DNA from: Haloarchaeobius amylolyticus
GTDB taxonomy: Archaea; Halobacteriota; Halobacteria; Halobacteriales; Natrialbaceae
Direction: 5' to 3'
DNA length: 64,000 bases
Assembly (NCBI RefSeq): GCF_026616195.1
Contig: NZ_JANHDH010000006.1
Span: 1-64,000, forward strand
The notes beneath the pieces were generated by a model. That model was not told where the DNA came from. It searched no databases and saw only the letters and a program-made list of their open reading frames with translations. Shown here one piece after another: positions 4,909 to 41,885 of the stretch; the first letter of the stretch is position 1, and each line of letters starts with the position of its first letter. The position numbers and the translations under genes are program-made.

Positions 4909-5964
4909 TCAGGCCATCTCGGCGGGGGTGTCCGGCGGTGCGGACTGTTCGCTCTCGACCGCGCGCAGGGTCGACTGGTCGAGCTCGACGAGGTGGCACA
5001 GCGGGTTCCCGGGGTAGACGACCGGGTTCTCGAGGACGCCCACGAGGACGCCCGTGAACGGGGCGTAGATGGGGTCGTTGTCCGTCTTGAACGGGCTGGT
5101 GATGGTGCAGATGCGGTCGCCCTCGTGGACGAGCGACCCGCACTCGAAGTGCATGTCGACGATGCCACCGGCGTCCGCGCGCAGCCACGTCTTCTCGTTG
5201 TGGCCCTCGATGATGGTCCGCCAGCCGGGCCAGCGCACCGACTCCGCCTTCAGCAGCCCGTACTCCGCGAGGACGCTCCGGACGCCGTCGAGGGCGCGGT
5301 CGATGAGGTGGCGCTGGAAGCGGTGGGCCTCGCCCATCTCGATGGTGATGGTCGGGATGCCGACGTCGGAGGCCTCCCGTCGCAGGGTTCCCTCCGGCCC
5401 CTCGCTGGAGATGATGACGTTCGAGGCGAACGCGCGCGCCAGCCGCGACACGTCGGGGTCGTCCATGTCGGCGCGGACGTGGAGCATGTTGGTTCGCCCG
5501 CGGGTCGACGTGTGGAGGTCGACGCCGAGGTCGCAGGGCTCGATGAAGTTCGTGAAGATGCGGTGGGCCATCCGCTTCGCGCTGGTCGAGTCGTCCCGGC
5601 CGGGGAACGACCGGTTGAGGTCGCGATCGTAGATGGGGAGGTAGCGCTGCTGGGCGAGGAAGCCGGGGACGTTCAGCACGGGGAGACAGACGAGACAGCC
5701 GTGCAGTTCGTCCAGCGGCCACTCGTGGGCCACCTCGCGGACGACCTCGATGCCGTTGAGTTCGTCGCCGTGGGCCGCCGCGGAGAGGAAGACGGTCGGC
5801 CCGGGGTGTTCGCCGTTGATGATGGTGACCGGGATGCGGACCGGGTCACCGAGATACGTCTCGCTGATACCGTAGCGGATGTTCGCCGACTCGCCGGGGT
5901 CCACCTTCCCACCGATGTAGGTGAACGCCTCGTTCGTGTCGGTCGAATCCTCCTCGCTGCTCAT
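4909..5964 (-). CDS. Succinylglutamate desuccinylase/aspartoacylase family protein
   Basis: This 351-residue zinc-dependent hydrolase belongs to the M14-like AstE/AspA family. The motif SAAAHGDELNGIE holds the zinc-binding H and E, YDRDLNRSFPG holds the conserved D-L-N-R substrate-binding residues, and DLHTSTRG supplies the third zinc ligand. TITIEMGEAHRF contains the likely catalytic glutamate. A C-terminal beta-rich domain (about residues 250-330, IVDMHFECGSLVHEGDRI) is characteristic of the deacylase subgroup. The substrate is not predictable. It lies just upstream of sdhC on the same strand, with about 70 bases between them that carry the sdh promoter. Confidence 0.85.
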   Translation of the reverse strand: MSSEEDSTDTNEAFTYIGGKVDPGESANIRYGISETYLGDPVRIPVTIINGEHPGPTVFLSAAAHGDELNGIEVVREVAHEWPLDELHGCLVCLPVLNVPGFLAQQRYLPIYDRDLNRSFPGRDDSTSAKRMAHRIFTNFIEPCDLGVDLHTSTRGRTNMLHVRADMDDPDVSRLARAFASNVIISSEGPEGTLRREASDVGIPTITIEMGEAHRFQRHLIDRALDGVRSVLAEYGLLKAESVRWPGWRTIIEGHNEKTWLRADAGGIVDMHFECGSLVHEGDRICTITSPFKTDNDPIYAPFTGVLVGVLENPVVYPGNPLCHLVELDQSTLRAVESEQSAPPDTPAEMA

Positions 5965-6103: not shown

Positions 6104-6859
6104 ATGGAGGTACGTGAAGCGACCCAAGCGGACGCCGAGACGATTCGAGACATCGCCAGCCGGTCCATGCACGCGTCGTACGAGAGCTTCCTCGACGCCG
6201 AGGTCATCGACCAGGCCATCGCGGAGTGGTACGACCACGAGGAACTCCACGACCAGCTCGACGACGACAACGTCATCCTGCTCGTCGCCGAAGACGGCGG
6301 CGAGGTCGTCGGTTTCTCCCAGAGCGAACTCCTCGCCAGGGAGTCGGTCGATGGGCGCATCACCTGGCTCCACGTCGACCCCGACGCACGCGACCGCGGC
6401 ATCGGCTCGCGGCTGCTCGTCCGCACGCAGGAGGAGTTGCTCGACCACGGGGCTGAGCGCATCTCCAGTGCCGTCCTCGCGGGCAACGAGTTCGGCAACG
6501 AGTTCTACGACGGCCACGGCTACGAGATGGTCGGCGACCGCGTCGTCGAGATCGGCGAGAGCGAGTTCCGCGAGAACGTCTGGCGGAAGGTCGACGGCGA
6601 GGAGGTGCCGGAGTGGGAGACGCTCGACCCCTTCGAGACCGAGGACGGCACGGTCTACGTCAGCTACAGCGAGGCGGCCCGCGGCTCGCAGGGGCCGTTC
6701 TACCAGGCCTACAGCGACGACGACCGCGACCGCAAGTACGGCTGGTTCTGTGGCGCCTGCCAGTCCTTCGAGAACGCGATGAGCACGATGGGCGAGGTCG
6801 TCTGCAACGAGTGCGGGAACCGCCGGAAGCCGACGCGGTGGGACGCCGCCTACCTCTGA
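6104..6859 (+). CDS. GNAT N-acetyltransferase with C-terminal zinc ribbon
   Basis: The protein has 251 residues. Residues 1-150 form a GNAT fold: the acetyl-CoA loop is in WLHVDPDARDRGIGSRLL (R-x-x-G-I-G-S), followed by GNEFGNEFYDGHGYEMVG as the last strand-helix pair. After a linker, the C-terminal 40 residues carry WFCGACQSF and VVCNECGNR, a four-cysteine zinc ribbon, and end in DAAYL. The fusion is probably family-specific in haloarchaea. A promoter-like ATTAAG at 6073-6078 lies 28 bases before the ATG and supports this start. The acetylated substrate is unknown. Confidence 0.8.
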   Translation: MEVREATQADAETIRDIASRSMHASYESFLDAEVIDQAIAEWYDHEELHDQLDDDNVILLVAEDGGEVVGFSQSELLARESVDGRITWLHVDPDARDRGIGSRLLVRTQEELLDHGAERISSAVLAGNEFGNEFYDGHGYEMVGDRVVEIGESEFRENVWRKVDGEEVPEWETLDPFETEDGTVYVSYSEAARGSQGPFYQAYSDDDRDRKYGWFCGACQSFENAMSTMGEVVCNECGNRRKPTRWDAAYL

Positions 6860-6960: not shown

Positions 6961-8319
6961 ATGGATGATACTTCTGACAGCGTGCGCGTAGGGGTGCTAA
7001 GCCTTCACAACAGCAAGGAGTCGAAGGCGATCTGCAACGCCGTCGAGGAACTCGGCCACCAGCCGGAGTGGCTGCGCGAGCAGAACACCACGGTCCGTAT
7101 CAAGGAGGGGGGCGTGACCCTGGAGCCGGACGTCGACGTCATCGCGAACCGGATGCTGCTCTCGAACACCGAACAGCCCTGCGAGGAACTCGGACTCGCG
7201 AACACGCTCAACAGCCTCCGACCGATGCTGAACGAGCCGCCGGCGACGCTCCGGGCGACACACAAGATCGCGACCGCCGCTGCGCTGTCGGACAACGGCA
7301 TCCGCGTCCCCGAGGCGTTCCTCGCGCTCGACGGCGAGAACCTCAACGCCGTCCGCGACGAGTTCGGCGAGGAGGCCGTCTACAAGACCGCCATCGGGAC
7401 CCACGGCGGCGGGACCTGGAAGGTCGGCCCCGACGAGCGCGTCAACGCCAAGGTCGGCAACCGCTACGCGTTCCTGCAGAAGCTCATCGACCGCGACGGC
7501 GAGCGCCACCGTGACATCCGCGTCTACGTCGTCGGCGACCAGGTCGTCGGTGCGATGTACCGCTACGCACCGGACAACGACTGGCGGACCAACGTCGCGC
7601 TCGGCGGCGAGGTGCAGGACGCGACCGAGGAACTCCCCGAGAAGGTCCGCAAGATCGCCAAGCGCTCGGCCGACATCGTCGGCCTCGACTACGCCGGCGT
7701 GGACATCGTCGAGGGCGACAACGGCTGGTACGTCCTCGAGGTCAACCCGACGGCCGGGTTCAAGGGCCTCTACCAGGCGACGAACCGCTCGCCGGCGCCG
7801 TACATCGCGAAGCTCGCCATCGAGAAGGCCGGCGGCGACGTCGACGAGGAGCGCGTCCGCGAACTCTCGGCGACGCTCGACGACTCCTGGCCGTCCTGCG
7901 CGCCGCGCGAGCGCACCGAGATGCCCGACAAGCCGGTCGTCGTCGGCTACACCGAGCAGGTCGTCGTCTCCGGGACCTCCGACTCGAAGACCGTTATGGC
8001 GAAGTCCGACACCGGCGCGACCCGCACGTCCATCGACACCGGGCTGGCGGCCGACATCGGCGCCGGGCCCATCAAGTCGGTCATGCGTGTGAAGTCCGGC
8101 AGCCTGAAACAGGGCAAGTCCCGTCCGGTCGTCGACCTCGTGGTCGGCGTCGGCGGCCAGCAGCACACCGTCACCGCCAGCGTCGAGGACCGCAGCCACA
8201 TGGACTACCCGGTGCTCCTCGGCCGTGACATCCTGAAGAACTACCAGGTCGACGTCTCCAAGCGCGCCGACAAGGCGAACGAGGACGAGCGCGAGGAAGA
8301 GGAAGAGGTCCTCGAGTAG
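6961..8319 (+). CDS. RimK-like ATP-grasp ligase fused to a retropepsin-like (RimB-type) protease
   Basis: This 452-residue protein has two enzyme domains. Residues 1 to about 285 are a RimK/LysX-type ATP-grasp ligase: RDIRVYVVG, DYAGVDIVEG (about 243) and LEVNPTAGF (about 259-267), the last with the metal-binding E-x-N. Residues about 325-440 match the retropepsin-like family once called ATP-dependent zinc protease: AKSDTGATRTSID, with the catalytic aspartate near 350, and PVLLGRDIL near 417-425. RimK enzymes add glutamate-like residues to protein or peptide C-termini, and the bacterial RimB protease acts with RimK. Here both activities would lie in one chain. The tail is highly acidic. TTTTTGG at 6931-6937 supports the start. 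A paralogue lies at 40566. Confidence 0.88.
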   Translation: MDDTSDSVRVGVLSLHNSKESKAICNAVEELGHQPEWLREQNTTVRIKEGGVTLEPDVDVIANRMLLSNTEQPCEELGLANTLNSLRPMLNEPPATLRATHKIATAAALSDNGIRVPEAFLALDGENLNAVRDEFGEEAVYKTAIGTHGGGTWKVGPDERVNAKVGNRYAFLQKLIDRDGERHRDIRVYVVGDQVVGAMYRYAPDNDWRTNVALGGEVQDATEELPEKVRKIAKRSADIVGLDYAGVDIVEGDNGWYVLEVNPTAGFKGLYQATNRSPAPYIAKLAIEKAGGDVDEERVRELSATLDDSWPSCAPRERTEMPDKPVVVGYTEQVVVSGTSDSKTVMAKSDTGATRTSIDTGLAADIGAGPIKSVMRVKSGSLKQGKSRPVVDLVVGVGGQQHTVTASVEDRSHMDYPVLLGRDILKNYQVDVSKRADKANEDEREEEEEVLE

Positions 8320-38276: not shown

Positions 38277-39230
38277 CTACCGGAACCGCCCGACGGGATA
38301 GCCGACCTTCTCGGGTTCGGCCTGGAAGCGCTGGACGATCTCGTCGTAGAGTTCGTTCCGGGTCGACTGCATCCGCTTGGGGTGGACGAGGTAGCGCACG
38401 CGGAGCACGACCCACGTCTGCTCCATCCGGACGTTCACCGTCGGGCGGTCGCTGACCTCCAGTTCGACCGGCGTGTCGTCGAGTTTGCGCCGGTAGCGCT
38501 GGGTCCGGGCGGCCATCTCGTCGCCGAGGTACTCGTCGGTGACCTCGCGCATCGTCTCCTTCACGAAGTCGAGGTCGGTCTCGTAGGAGACCTGCACCTC
38601 CAGTTCGTTCCAGACGAACGGGAAGTCGTCGATGGCGTAGTTGAACACCTGTGCGGAGAGCACCTTGCTGTTCGGCACGGTGACCACCCGGCCGGAGGGC
38701 TGGTGGGTGCTCACGAGGTCACCCTGGACCTCCCACAGCGTCGTGACGAGGAAGTCCACGTCGATGACGTCGCCCCGGGCGTCGTCGATGCGGATGCGGT
38801 CGCCGACCTGGTACGGCCGCACCGCCATGATGTACACCCAGCCCAGCAGCGAGGAGAGGGGCTGCTGGAGCGCGAAGGTGACCGCGAAGCCGACGATACC
38901 GAGCGAGAACAGCACGCCGACCCACTGGCCGGTGAAGACGCCGGCGACGGCGATGGCGGCCGCGACGATGAACGAGAGTCGGACGACGTTTCGCACGTCG
39001 TGGCGGCGGCGCTTGTCGCGGACGATGCGCGAGAGGCCGAGGCTCGCGAGCAGGTAGAGGCCGTAGGCCGCCCCGGCGATGGTGATCGAGAGCAGTCCCT
39101 TCTCCACCCACGGGATGAGTTTCGTGTCCGGCGTCCCCGGCAGCGCCGGCCAGACGGCGTCGACGAAACTGAAGCCGAGGAAGGCGACGAAGGCGATGGC
39201 GAGGACGAGGTACCCGAGACGACGTTTCAC
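38277..39230 (-). CDS. Small-conductance mechanosensitive channel (MscS family)
   Basis: This 317-residue membrane protein starts with GTG. Four hydrophobic segments occur in residues 1-165: LGYLVLAIAFVAFLGFSFVD, SITIAGAAYGLYLLASL, LSFIVAAAIAVAGVF, and the pore-lining VLFSLGIVGFAVTFALQQPLSSLLGWVYI. The cytoplasmic beta domain begins with PYQVGDRIRIDDARGDVIDVDFLVT and VVTVPNSKVLSAQVFNY, both characteristic of MscS. It releases solutes on hypo-osmotic shock, important for a halophile. It is divergent from the dUTPase-like gene. Confidence 0.93.
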   Translation of the reverse strand: MKRRLGYLVLAIAFVAFLGFSFVDAVWPALPGTPDTKLIPWVEKGLLSITIAGAAYGLYLLASLGLSRIVRDKRRRHDVRNVVRLSFIVAAAIAVAGVFTGQWVGVLFSLGIVGFAVTFALQQPLSSLLGWVYIMAVRPYQVGDRIRIDDARGDVIDVDFLVTTLWEVQGDLVSTHQPSGRVVTVPNSKVLSAQVFNYAIDDFPFVWNELEVQVSYETDLDFVKETMREVTDEYLGDEMAARTQRYRRKLDDTPVELEVSDRPTVNVRMEQTWVVLRVRYLVHPKRMQSTRNELYDEIVQRFQAEPEKVGYPVGRFR

Positions 39231-39799: not shown

Positions 39800-39910
39800 C
39801 CACCGCCACCTCCTTTCGCGGCCGGCGTTCTGCTCGGCAACCGCGCCGTGTGCCCCGGTACCAACCATTAAGCCCTCTTCTCCCGAACTATCACACGGGT
39901 GTTACTCCCA

Positions 39911-40504
39911 ATGAGTGCAAAGAAAATCCTGCTGCTGGCCGGTGACTTCGTCGAGGACTACGAGATAATGGTGCCCTTCCAGGCGCTCCAGGCGGTGGGC
40001 CACGAGGTCCACGCGGTCTGTCCCGAGAAGACAGCCGAGGACTCGGTGAAGACCGCCGTCCACGACTTCCGGGGGGACCAGACCTACCTCGAGACTCGCG
40101 GGCACGACTTCGCGCTGAACGCGACGTTCGCCGACATCGACCCCGCCGACTACGACGCGCTGGTCGTACCCGGCGGGCGCGCGCCGGAGTACCTCCGGAA
40201 CTACGAGGAGGTCATCTCGGCGGTCCAGCACTTCTTCGAGGCCGAGAAGCCGGTCGCCTGCATCTGTCACGGCGCACAGATCCTCGCGGCCGCCGACGTC
40301 ATCGAGGGCTACGGCTGCACCGCCTACCCCGCCCTGAAGTACGACGTCGAGGCGGCCGGCGGCGAGTGGCACGACGGCGTCACGACCGACGGGAACCTCG
40401 TGACGGCGCAGGCCTGGCCGGACCACCCCGAGTGGCTCTCGCAGTTCCTCGACGTGCTCGGCACCGAGGTAACGCACCGGGAACCCGTCACCGCGGACGA
40501 CTGA
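39911..40504 (+). CDS. DJ-1/PfpI family protein
   Basis: This 197-residue protein has the fold of class I glutamine amidotransferase-like proteins. [21 protein letters not shown] contains the conserved glutamate region, and [19 protein letters not shown] holds the nucleophilic cysteine in a tight turn with the adjacent histidine. [13 protein letters not shown] is the other active-site loop. The family includes deglycases, chaperones and peptidase-like proteins, so the role is open; stress protection is likely. It is followed 61 bases later by the second ligase-protease fusion gene. Confidence 0.88.
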
Positions 40505-40565: not shown

Positions 40566-41885
40566 ATGGAGACAGGGTCCCGGGCTCCCGCTGTCGGTGT
40601 TCTCAGCCTTCACAGCAGCAAGGAGACCAAAGCCATCTGCAACGCCCTCGTCGCCCTCGGCGCCGACGCCGAGTGGCTTCGCGAGGAGAACACGGCCATC
40701 CGGATACGAGACGGCGAGGTCGACCTCGACCCGCCGGTCGACGTGGTGGTGAACCGACTGTTGCTCTCGAAGGCGGACGCACCACTCGAGGAGCTGTGCC
40801 TGGCGAACCGGCTCGCGCACCTGCGGCCGACGCTCAACCACCCGGAGGACGTCATGACGGCGCTCGACAAGTACGCGACCGCCATCGTCCTCGCCCAACA
40901 CGGCATCCCGGTGCCGGACGCGCTGCTGGCGCTCGATTACGACGAGTTCAACGAGTCGCTCCAGGCCTTCGGCGAGAAGGCCGTCTACAAGACCGCCATC
41001 GGGACGAACGGGGCCGGCACCTGGCTCGTCGAGACCGACGAGCAGAAGACCCCGACGGTCGGCATGAAGCAGGCGTTCCTCCAGGAGTACGTCGAGACCA
41101 CGGGCGAGCGCCACCGCGACATGCGGGTGTACGTCGTCGGCGACGAGGTCGTCGGGGCGATGTTCCGGTACGCGCCGCCGGGCGACTGGCGGACCAACGT
41201 CGCTCTCGGCGGCGAGGTCGAGGACGCCGGCGACGCCCTCACCGACGAGGTCGCCCGCATCGCGCTCGACGCGACCCGGGTGCTCGACCTCGACTACGCC
41301 GGCGTCGACCTGGTCGAGGGGCCGGACGGCTGGTGCATCCTCGAGGTCAACCCGACCGCCGGGTTCAGGGGGCTCTACGAGGCGACGGGGCGCTCGCCGG
41401 CGCCCTACATCGCGAAACTGGCCATCGAGGCGGCCGGCGGGACGGTCGACGACGAGCGCGTCGCCGAACTCGCCGCGACGCTCGACGATTCCATCCCCGC
41501 CTGCGCGCCGCTGGCGGTCACGGATGGGGCGGAACCCGCCACCGTCGGCTACATCGAGGAGGTGACCGTCATCGGGACGAGCGGGGCCGAGACCATCTAC
41601 GCGAAGTCCGACACCGGTGCGGGCCGGACCAGCATCGACACCCGACTCGCGGCCGCCATCGGGGCCGGGCCGGTCCGGAACAGCATCCGAATCAAGTCCG
41701 GGAGCCTGAAGGCCGGTCGCGTCCGCCCCATGGTCGACGTGGTGGTCGACCTCGGCGGCGAGCGCCACACGGTCCAGGCCAGCGTCGAGGACCGCAGCCA
41801 CATGGAACACCCCGTCCTGCTGGGGCGAGACGTGCTCCAGTACTATCACGTGGACATCAACTCCCGCGCCGACGGGAGCGCCTGA
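40566..41885 (+). CDS. RimK-like ATP-grasp ligase fused to a retropepsin-like protease, second copy
   Basis: This 439-residue paralogue of the protein at 6961 has the same two-domain order. Ligase: VGVLSLHSSKETKAICNALV, RDMRVYVVGDEVVGAMFRYAP, DYAGVDLVEGPDG, LEVNPTAGFRGLYEATGRSP. Protease: IYAKSDTGAGRTSIDTRLAA, with the catalytic aspartate near 349, and PVLLGRDVLQYYHVDINSRAD. Unlike the first copy it lacks the long acidic C-terminal tail. RimK-type ligases add amino acids, often glutamate, to a protein or peptide; retropepsin-like RimB proteins act with RimK in bacteria. The substrate here is unknown. Confidence 0.88.
   Translation: METGSRAPAVGVLSLHSSKETKAICNALVALGADAEWLREENTAIRIRDGEVDLDPPVDVVVNRLLLSKADAPLEELCLANRLAHLRPTLNHPEDVMTALDKYATAIVLAQHGIPVPDALLALDYDEFNESLQAFGEKAVYKTAIGTNGAGTWLVETDEQKTPTVGMKQAFLQEYVETTGERHRDMRVYVVGDEVVGAMFRYAPPGDWRTNVALGGEVEDAGDALTDEVARIALDATRVLDLDYAGVDLVEGPDGWCILEVNPTAGFRGLYEATGRSPAPYIAKLAIEAAGGTVDDERVAELAATLDDSIPACAPLAVTDGAEPATVGYIEEVTVIGTSGAETIYAKSDTGAGRTSIDTRLAAAIGAGPVRNSIRIKSGSLKAGRVRPMVDVVVDLGGERHTVQASVEDRSHMEHPVLLGRDVLQYYHVDINSRADGSA

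Follow-up and report, generated by a model that had tools for sequence, protein, structure and literature searches.

The 64,000-nucleotide stretch of Haloarchaeobius amylolyticus DNA analysed here (the window) encodes a 452-residue fusion of a RimK-family ligase and a retropepsin (copy A; positions 6961 to 8319, forward strand), a protein type that is near-universal in its order of haloarchaea. On balance, this fusion probably acts as a haloarchaeal poly-alpha-glutamate writer-eraser, working together with an AstE-like hydrolase.

In the proposed mechanism, the RimK-family domain would use ATP to add alpha-linked glutamate residues singly to a glutamate-ended acceptor, the foremost candidate being the -EE tail of the fusion itself. 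The retropepsin domain would work as a dimer, to which each chain contributes its D350, and would cut glutamate chains longer than about five residues and leave a short stub, and the AstE-like M14 metallohydrolase would strip the remaining stub glutamates or process the released oligoglutamate. Glutamylation is the presumed chemistry, the chain-length rule would be carried over to the fusion from Pseudomonas RimB, and the AstE-like enzyme is assigned a putative role as a deglutamylase from its gene context; the ligase domain could also add a different amino acid, or its substrate could be a small molecule, as in the case of MptN and CofF. If the tail is indeed the acceptor, a single chain would unite writer, eraser and acceptor and take the place of the RimK/RimB/RpsF trio. 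The AstE-like family would also supply a candidate for the 'reset' protease, which was postulated in work on Pseudomonas because RimB cannot remove the last glutamate residues and which is still to be found (PMC7343187). The proposal makes a near-universal haloarchaeal enzyme testable and points to poly-glutamylation without bS6, the only well-known protein acceptor; haloarchaea may have a self-contained glutamate-chain system of their own.

Domain architecture, conserved residues and spread of the fusion

The initial annotation placed a RimK-type ligase and a RimB-type protease in one polypeptide, and both domains exceed their Pfam cut-offs in copy A: RimK (PF08443) at residues 100-271 (E 2e-23; 83 bits against a cut-off of 21) and PF05618 at residues 374-435 (E 2e-10; 41.2 bits against a cut-off of 27). 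The ligase half is a RimK/LysX-type pre-ATP-grasp and ATP-grasp region (residues 8-291; positions 6982 to 7833, forward strand) containing the Mg/ATP residues D248, E260 and N262 and the glutamate-site residues S14, R64, S68 and R187. Its description as RimK-type holds at the level of the family, with 160.5 bits to TIGR00768 (RimK family alpha-L-glutamate ligase) against a cut-off of 143.4, but not at the level of the RimK equivalog (NF007764), to which it scores 63.9 bits against a cut-off of 331. The MptN and LysX equivalogs score higher than RimK (130 and 121 bits), also below their respective cut-offs of 350 and 276. In an AlphaFold2 model, the RimK half matches RimK and ArgX structures with a Z score of approximately 27 over 268-278 residues, within a range of 24-28 for RimK, ArgX and LysX structures. 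A fold search with the full-length model of copy A listed ATP-grasp matches alone and thus bears on the ligase half.

The retropepsin is C-terminal to the ligase, a compact RimB/RloA-like domain (approximately residues 326-436; positions 7936 to 8268, forward strand) in which around 30 residues of bacterial RimB are missing. Profile-profile alignment (hhalign) of this half with RimB and retropepsin sequences gave 94.8% probability and E 5e-8, pairing the DTGA, the R of RPV, the DR and the LLGR motifs. The RimB equivalog (NF052261) gave no match to copy A at E 0.1, the RloA models matched at 30-41 bits, below their cut-offs, and the C-terminal domain had a pLDDT of approximately 30-40 in two AlphaFold2 models, for which the alignment was probably too shallow. 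Assignment to the retropepsin family is based on PF05618, the profile-profile alignment and DTGA, R388, R411 and GRD, which nearly all of the 115 fusions in the alignment described below retain. The active-site aspartate, previously placed at about residue 350, is exactly D350 within DTGA, the putative catalytic residue, and the LLGRD motif is present at 419-423. With both domains and D350 confirmed, the original observation is real and its residue numbers are correct. The metal site that was to be modelled is given up for the protease: RimB is an aspartic retropepsin despite the name 'zinc protease' of PF05618 and offers no such site, and a metal-dependent protease is not supported in view of the DTG motif and of the insensitivity of RimB to EDTA and phenanthroline (PMC11957791).

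Residue conservation was counted over an alignment of 115 haloarchaeal fusions. The ATP/Mg residues D248, E260 and N262 are conserved in 114 of these, with one gap, R64 and R187 in all 115, S14 in 112 and S68 in 107. Residues S14, R64, S68, R187 and N262 correspond to S7, R64, S68, R189 and N262 of P. aeruginosa RimK, which touch the poly-glutamate chain; R8 of RimK is not conserved and is leucine in the fusion, and R64 is not specific, since it is common to the genome's own LysX/ArgX-like protein. In the retropepsin domain, D350 is present in 113/115 fusions, accompanied by K348 (109/115), R388 (110/115) and R411 (114/115), which match K46, R114 and R137 of RloA by position, the spacing of 23 between R114 and R137 being exactly preserved. 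These RloA residues coordinate poly-glutamate, with the strongest loss of cleavage resulting from R114A and R137A. Judged by alignment, the poly-glutamate-contacting residues of RloA and RimK are largely conserved in the fusion.

The taxonomic spread, which the initial annotation proposed to map, comprises 122 of 146 haloarchaeal genomes (one order), in which the fusion is nearly always full length and identity is mostly 45-84%. This distribution rules out a fresh fusion, a frameshift or an assembly artefact. Viral horizontal spread was also rejected, two scans of viral contigs having returned no relatives.

Several genomes carry two copies, including this one, in which a second fused paralog of 439 residues (copy B; positions 40566 to 41885, forward strand) is present on the same 65-kb contig. 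Copy B is 62% identical to copy A and retains DTGA and PF05618 (31.5 bits; cut-off 27), and at its locus in the window it has neither a glutamate tail nor an adjacent AstE gene. A DJ-1/PfpI gene (39899 to 40504) and an MscS-type mechanosensitive channel (38277 to 39230, reverse strand) are situated just upstream of copy B. In five paralogs of the 115-fusion alignment the D-x-G motif was lost and the ligase residues were retained, indicating that the two activities are separable. A degenerate retropepsin motif (DP.., DTTA) with retained ligase residues characterises the secondary paralogs L145, L146, L147, L148 and L150 (and L154), several of which are without a glutamate tail.

The wider phylum contains shorter, separate PF05618 proteins, chiefly in family f10 (Methanosarcinaceae-like), which is taken to be Methanosarcinaceae on the basis of a Methanosarcina acetivorans control and of genome properties. 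A divergent PF05618-like family of approximately 180 residues, covering profile positions 25-138 and not adjoining RimK, is present in families f10, f26 and f18 (methanogen-related; L115-L122). Lone, short retropepsin-like reading frames (approximately 105-125 residues; L167:3992-4366 and L168:4001-4318), which are 38-42% identical to the C-terminal domain of the fusion, are found on haloarchaeal megaplasmids. In a Haladaptatus plasmid copy (L171), the downstream AstE-family gene is a different one, and a gene of the glutamate-cysteine ligase family lies nearby.

The AstE-like partner and its gene neighbourhood

Head-to-head with the fusion is a gene for an AstE/AspA-type M14 hydrolase (positions 4909 to 5964, reverse strand; PF24827, 162 bits against a cut-off of 25), which keeps the zinc and substrate motifs HGDE, DLHT and DLNR conserved in the alignment of AstE proteins from the gene triads described below. 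An AstE-like homologue was found in the flank of 74 of 97 fusion loci, which are related and not independent, and was upstream and divergent in 73. The gap between the two genes is 100-200 bases in most families; Natrialbaceae and this genome have one or two intervening genes, here a GNAT acetyltransferase with a DUF5816 C-terminus (positions 6104 to 6859, forward strand), which is near many fusions without being universal. The sdh genes beyond the AstE-like gene are also syntenic, and the AstE-like gene is still beside the fusion at the sdh-less loci L140, L124 and L151, the last being a divergent paralog.

The association extends to genomes in which the components are separate. Genes rimB, rimK and astE are adjacent in all seven loci examined in full from the Methanosarcinaceae-like family f10 (L108-L114), and the same trio occurs in Salinivibrio, Vibrio europaeus, V. 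nigripulchritudo and the cyanobacterium Acaryochloris; it is absent at the lone rimK of Allocoleopsis, and no AstE-like gene is beside the Thioclava hybrid (L163). This genome has 12 AstE-family matches, so chance adjacency at a single locus is not negligible, and the case for association is made by the repeated adjacency of AstE across different arrangements and phyla. Given the separate but adjacent trios, the fusion behaves like the Rosetta-stone form of a wider three-part module. A literature search found no paper describing the rimB-rimK-astE triad.

Relationships among AstE proteins were taken from pairwise scores alone, because the tree had long branches and unsettled bootstrap support. 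The AstE-like protein of the window scores 206 against a gammaproteobacterial triad member and 201 against a Methanosarcinaceae triad member, versus at most 142 against the other paralogs of its genome, except L179 (394), a close relative of the triad AstE group.

The Vibrionaceae triads (L161, L162, L189 and L169, the last on a Vibrio nigripulchritudo plasmid) are flanked by MscS, magnesium transporters and UspA, and ectoine biosynthesis genes are beside the triad of L169; a link of these triads to osmotic stress is possible. The MscS association was itself discarded as support, as it was seen in Vibrionaceae triads and near copy B and is not general in archaea.

The AstE-family enzymes are classically N-acyl-amino-acid hydrolases, and this context fits a different explanation, in which the product of the ligase would be an alpha-glutamyl oligopeptide, N-acylated or free, that might serve as a compatible solute or counter-ion. 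The retropepsin would then shorten this oligopeptide, and the AstE/AspA-type enzyme would deacylate or recycle its units. A parallel is the metabolism of NAA and NAAG in mammals, which involves a GNAT, a RimK-like ligase, a peptidase and an aspartoacylase. The aspartoacylase-type partner, the GNAT near this and many other fusions and the salt-stress genes at Vibrionaceae triads (MscS, magnesium transporters and, once, ectoine genes) make such a small-molecule cycle a serious alternative, if an unlikely one. It is also favoured by the stimulation of RimK synthesis of free poly-alpha-glutamate by RimB, and by MptN and CofF, which are RimK-family ligases that build coenzyme side chains. However, a cycle of this kind leaves the conserved, encoded -EE tail unexplained, the GNAT is missing from some loci, archaeal fusions have no conserved MscS neighbour, and the conserved residues are those that contact poly-glutamate chains, not short peptides.

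The encoded glutamate tail and candidate acceptors

Copy A ends in an encoded glutamate tail, KANEDEREEEEEVLE (positions 8272 to 8316, forward strand), with mixed GAG and GAA codons and the terminal residues EEEEEVLE. A C-terminal -EE is present in 88/115 fusions versus 6/904 (0.7%) of the neighbouring proteins at the same loci, and in none of eleven neighbouring gene families. Terminal glutamate occurs in 90% of fusions versus 19% of neighbours, and a run of at least four glutamates within the last 12 residues in 65% versus 0/900. The commonest run length is four (49/116 fusions), while six or more were found in 8/116. Both glutamate codons are used in 74 of 77 runs, which ruled out microsatellite slippage as the origin of the tail, and pure runs are fewer than random (3 observed versus approximately 14 expected); together these point to selection on the protein rather than slippage. 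The tail tends to accompany an AstE neighbour (Fisher p 0.0006) and an intact protease motif (p 0.017), both values being uncorrected for relatedness.

These observations bear on whether the tail could reflect ordinary halophilic acidity, with the two domains joined merely for co-expression. Haloarchaeal proteins are acidic, the tail or protease motif is missing in some paralogs and the fusions of family f34 have no glutamate tail. Against this, the frequency of -EE in fusions relative to their neighbours, the codon mixture with its shortage of pure runs and the usual persistence of -EE across families with varying linkers make chance acidity of the tail unlikely, and the explanation as a whole very improbable.

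The bacterial-type target is excluded, since bS6 (RpsF, PF01250) was found in none of the eight archaeal genomes searched, namely this one and seven of Methanosarcinaceae, with 10 bacterial controls positive, in agreement with the earlier statement that archaea have no RpsF. RimK proper (NF007764 at 1e-60) had no match in haloarchaeal genomes and was found in family f10 only. There, the loci L108-L114 encode a canonical RimK (approximately 450-480 bits to NF007764), probably acquired from bacteria, inside the rimB-rimK-astE cluster; as bS6 is absent from these archaea, even a true RimK there has to act on something other than S6.

One possibility, by analogy with RimK and RpsF, is that the fusion glutamylates and trims another glutamate-ended haloarchaeal protein, in which case the acidic tail of the fusion would be only a docking element or inhibitory pseudosubstrate. 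This explanation is in keeping with the known activity of RimK on a protein C-terminus and with the structures in which ArgX and LysX hold the protein LysW, which ends in glutamate. A search of this genome for four glutamate codons preceding a stop or TGG gave only two matches, a MogA-like protein (L186) and an ABC permease (L187); both proteins end in EEEE and are possible trans acceptors. Modification in trans is nonetheless doubtful, as no conserved candidate acceptor protein was found for the fusion and bS6 is absent.

The glutamate tail suggests that the fusion is its own acceptor. Pseudomonas RimB requires six contiguous glutamates, or five counting the encoded terminal glutamate, and leaves approximately four; the encoded tail, usually of two to five glutamates, therefore looks like a primer below the RimB cleavage threshold. 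It is tentatively proposed that the fusion is a self-substrate enzyme in which the ligase would extend its own -EE/EEEE tail, usually below the known threshold when encoded, the retropepsin would trim it and the AstE-like M14 enzyme would reset it. If the tail is the acceptor, this would be an unusual modification enzyme encoding writer, eraser and substrate. The suggestion of the initial annotation that a reversible protein-tagging enzyme acts on an unknown target is thus partly supported: such an activity is plausible from the sequence features, and the target is possibly the enzyme itself, given its encoded tail.

Comparison with known writer-eraser systems

In Pseudomonas, RimK adds glutamate to the C-terminus of RpsF, which ends in DNADE in P. 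fluorescens, and RimB, a retropepsin, removes it. The same two activities are predicted for the fusion, in which the poly-glutamate-contacting residues are conserved, and the product of about four glutamates and the glutamate-ended acceptor of Pseudomonas can be likened to its tail. The Pseudomonas system differs in having separate genes, bS6 as acceptor, regulation by RimA and c-di-GMP, and no described AstE. The RloABC system of P. aeruginosa, which has a role in osmotic stress, encodes a poly-glutamate-cutting retropepsin, whose K46, R114 and R137 have conserved equivalents in the fusion, with an ATP-grasp protein, but is secreted, is encoded by separate genes and includes an inactive transglutaminase partner. 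LysX and ArgX, which act on LysW, as well as MptN and CofF, belong to the RimK family like the ligase half, but have no retropepsin domain. The clusters of Methanosarcinaceae, Vibrionaceae and cyanobacteria (L108-L114, L161, L162, L169, L188 and L189) contain the same three components in adjacent genes, as three separate proteins in which no glutamate tail was seen and with a canonical RimK in those scored, namely L108 and a further 12 f10 genomes.

The closest counterparts are the bacterial RimBK hybrids published in 2025 in a survey confined to bacteria, which include Desulfotalea psychrophila DP2392 and proteins of many Flavobacteriales and Rhodobacterales; their protease is active on poly-glutamate, and RpsF glutamylation was not seen (PMC11957791). 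Like the haloarchaeal fusion, they have the RimK-type ligase and the RimB-type retropepsin in one chain. A writer-eraser hybrid is therefore not new as such (PMC11957791), and the haloarchaeal protein is a separate variant of a known concept. In RimBK the RimB domain is N-terminal, whereas the haloarchaeal retropepsin is C-terminal. The Thioclava hybrid, for example, has PF05618 at residues 8-142 and RimK at residues 258-443, its ligase half has the RimK-specific Rimk_N domain, which the haloarchaeal fusion is without, and it has neither an AstE neighbour nor a glutamate tail. No earlier description was found of the conserved AstE partner and the encoded acceptor-like tail, which are new to the haloarchaeal variant together with its archaeal order of ligase then retropepsin and its conservation across a whole order.
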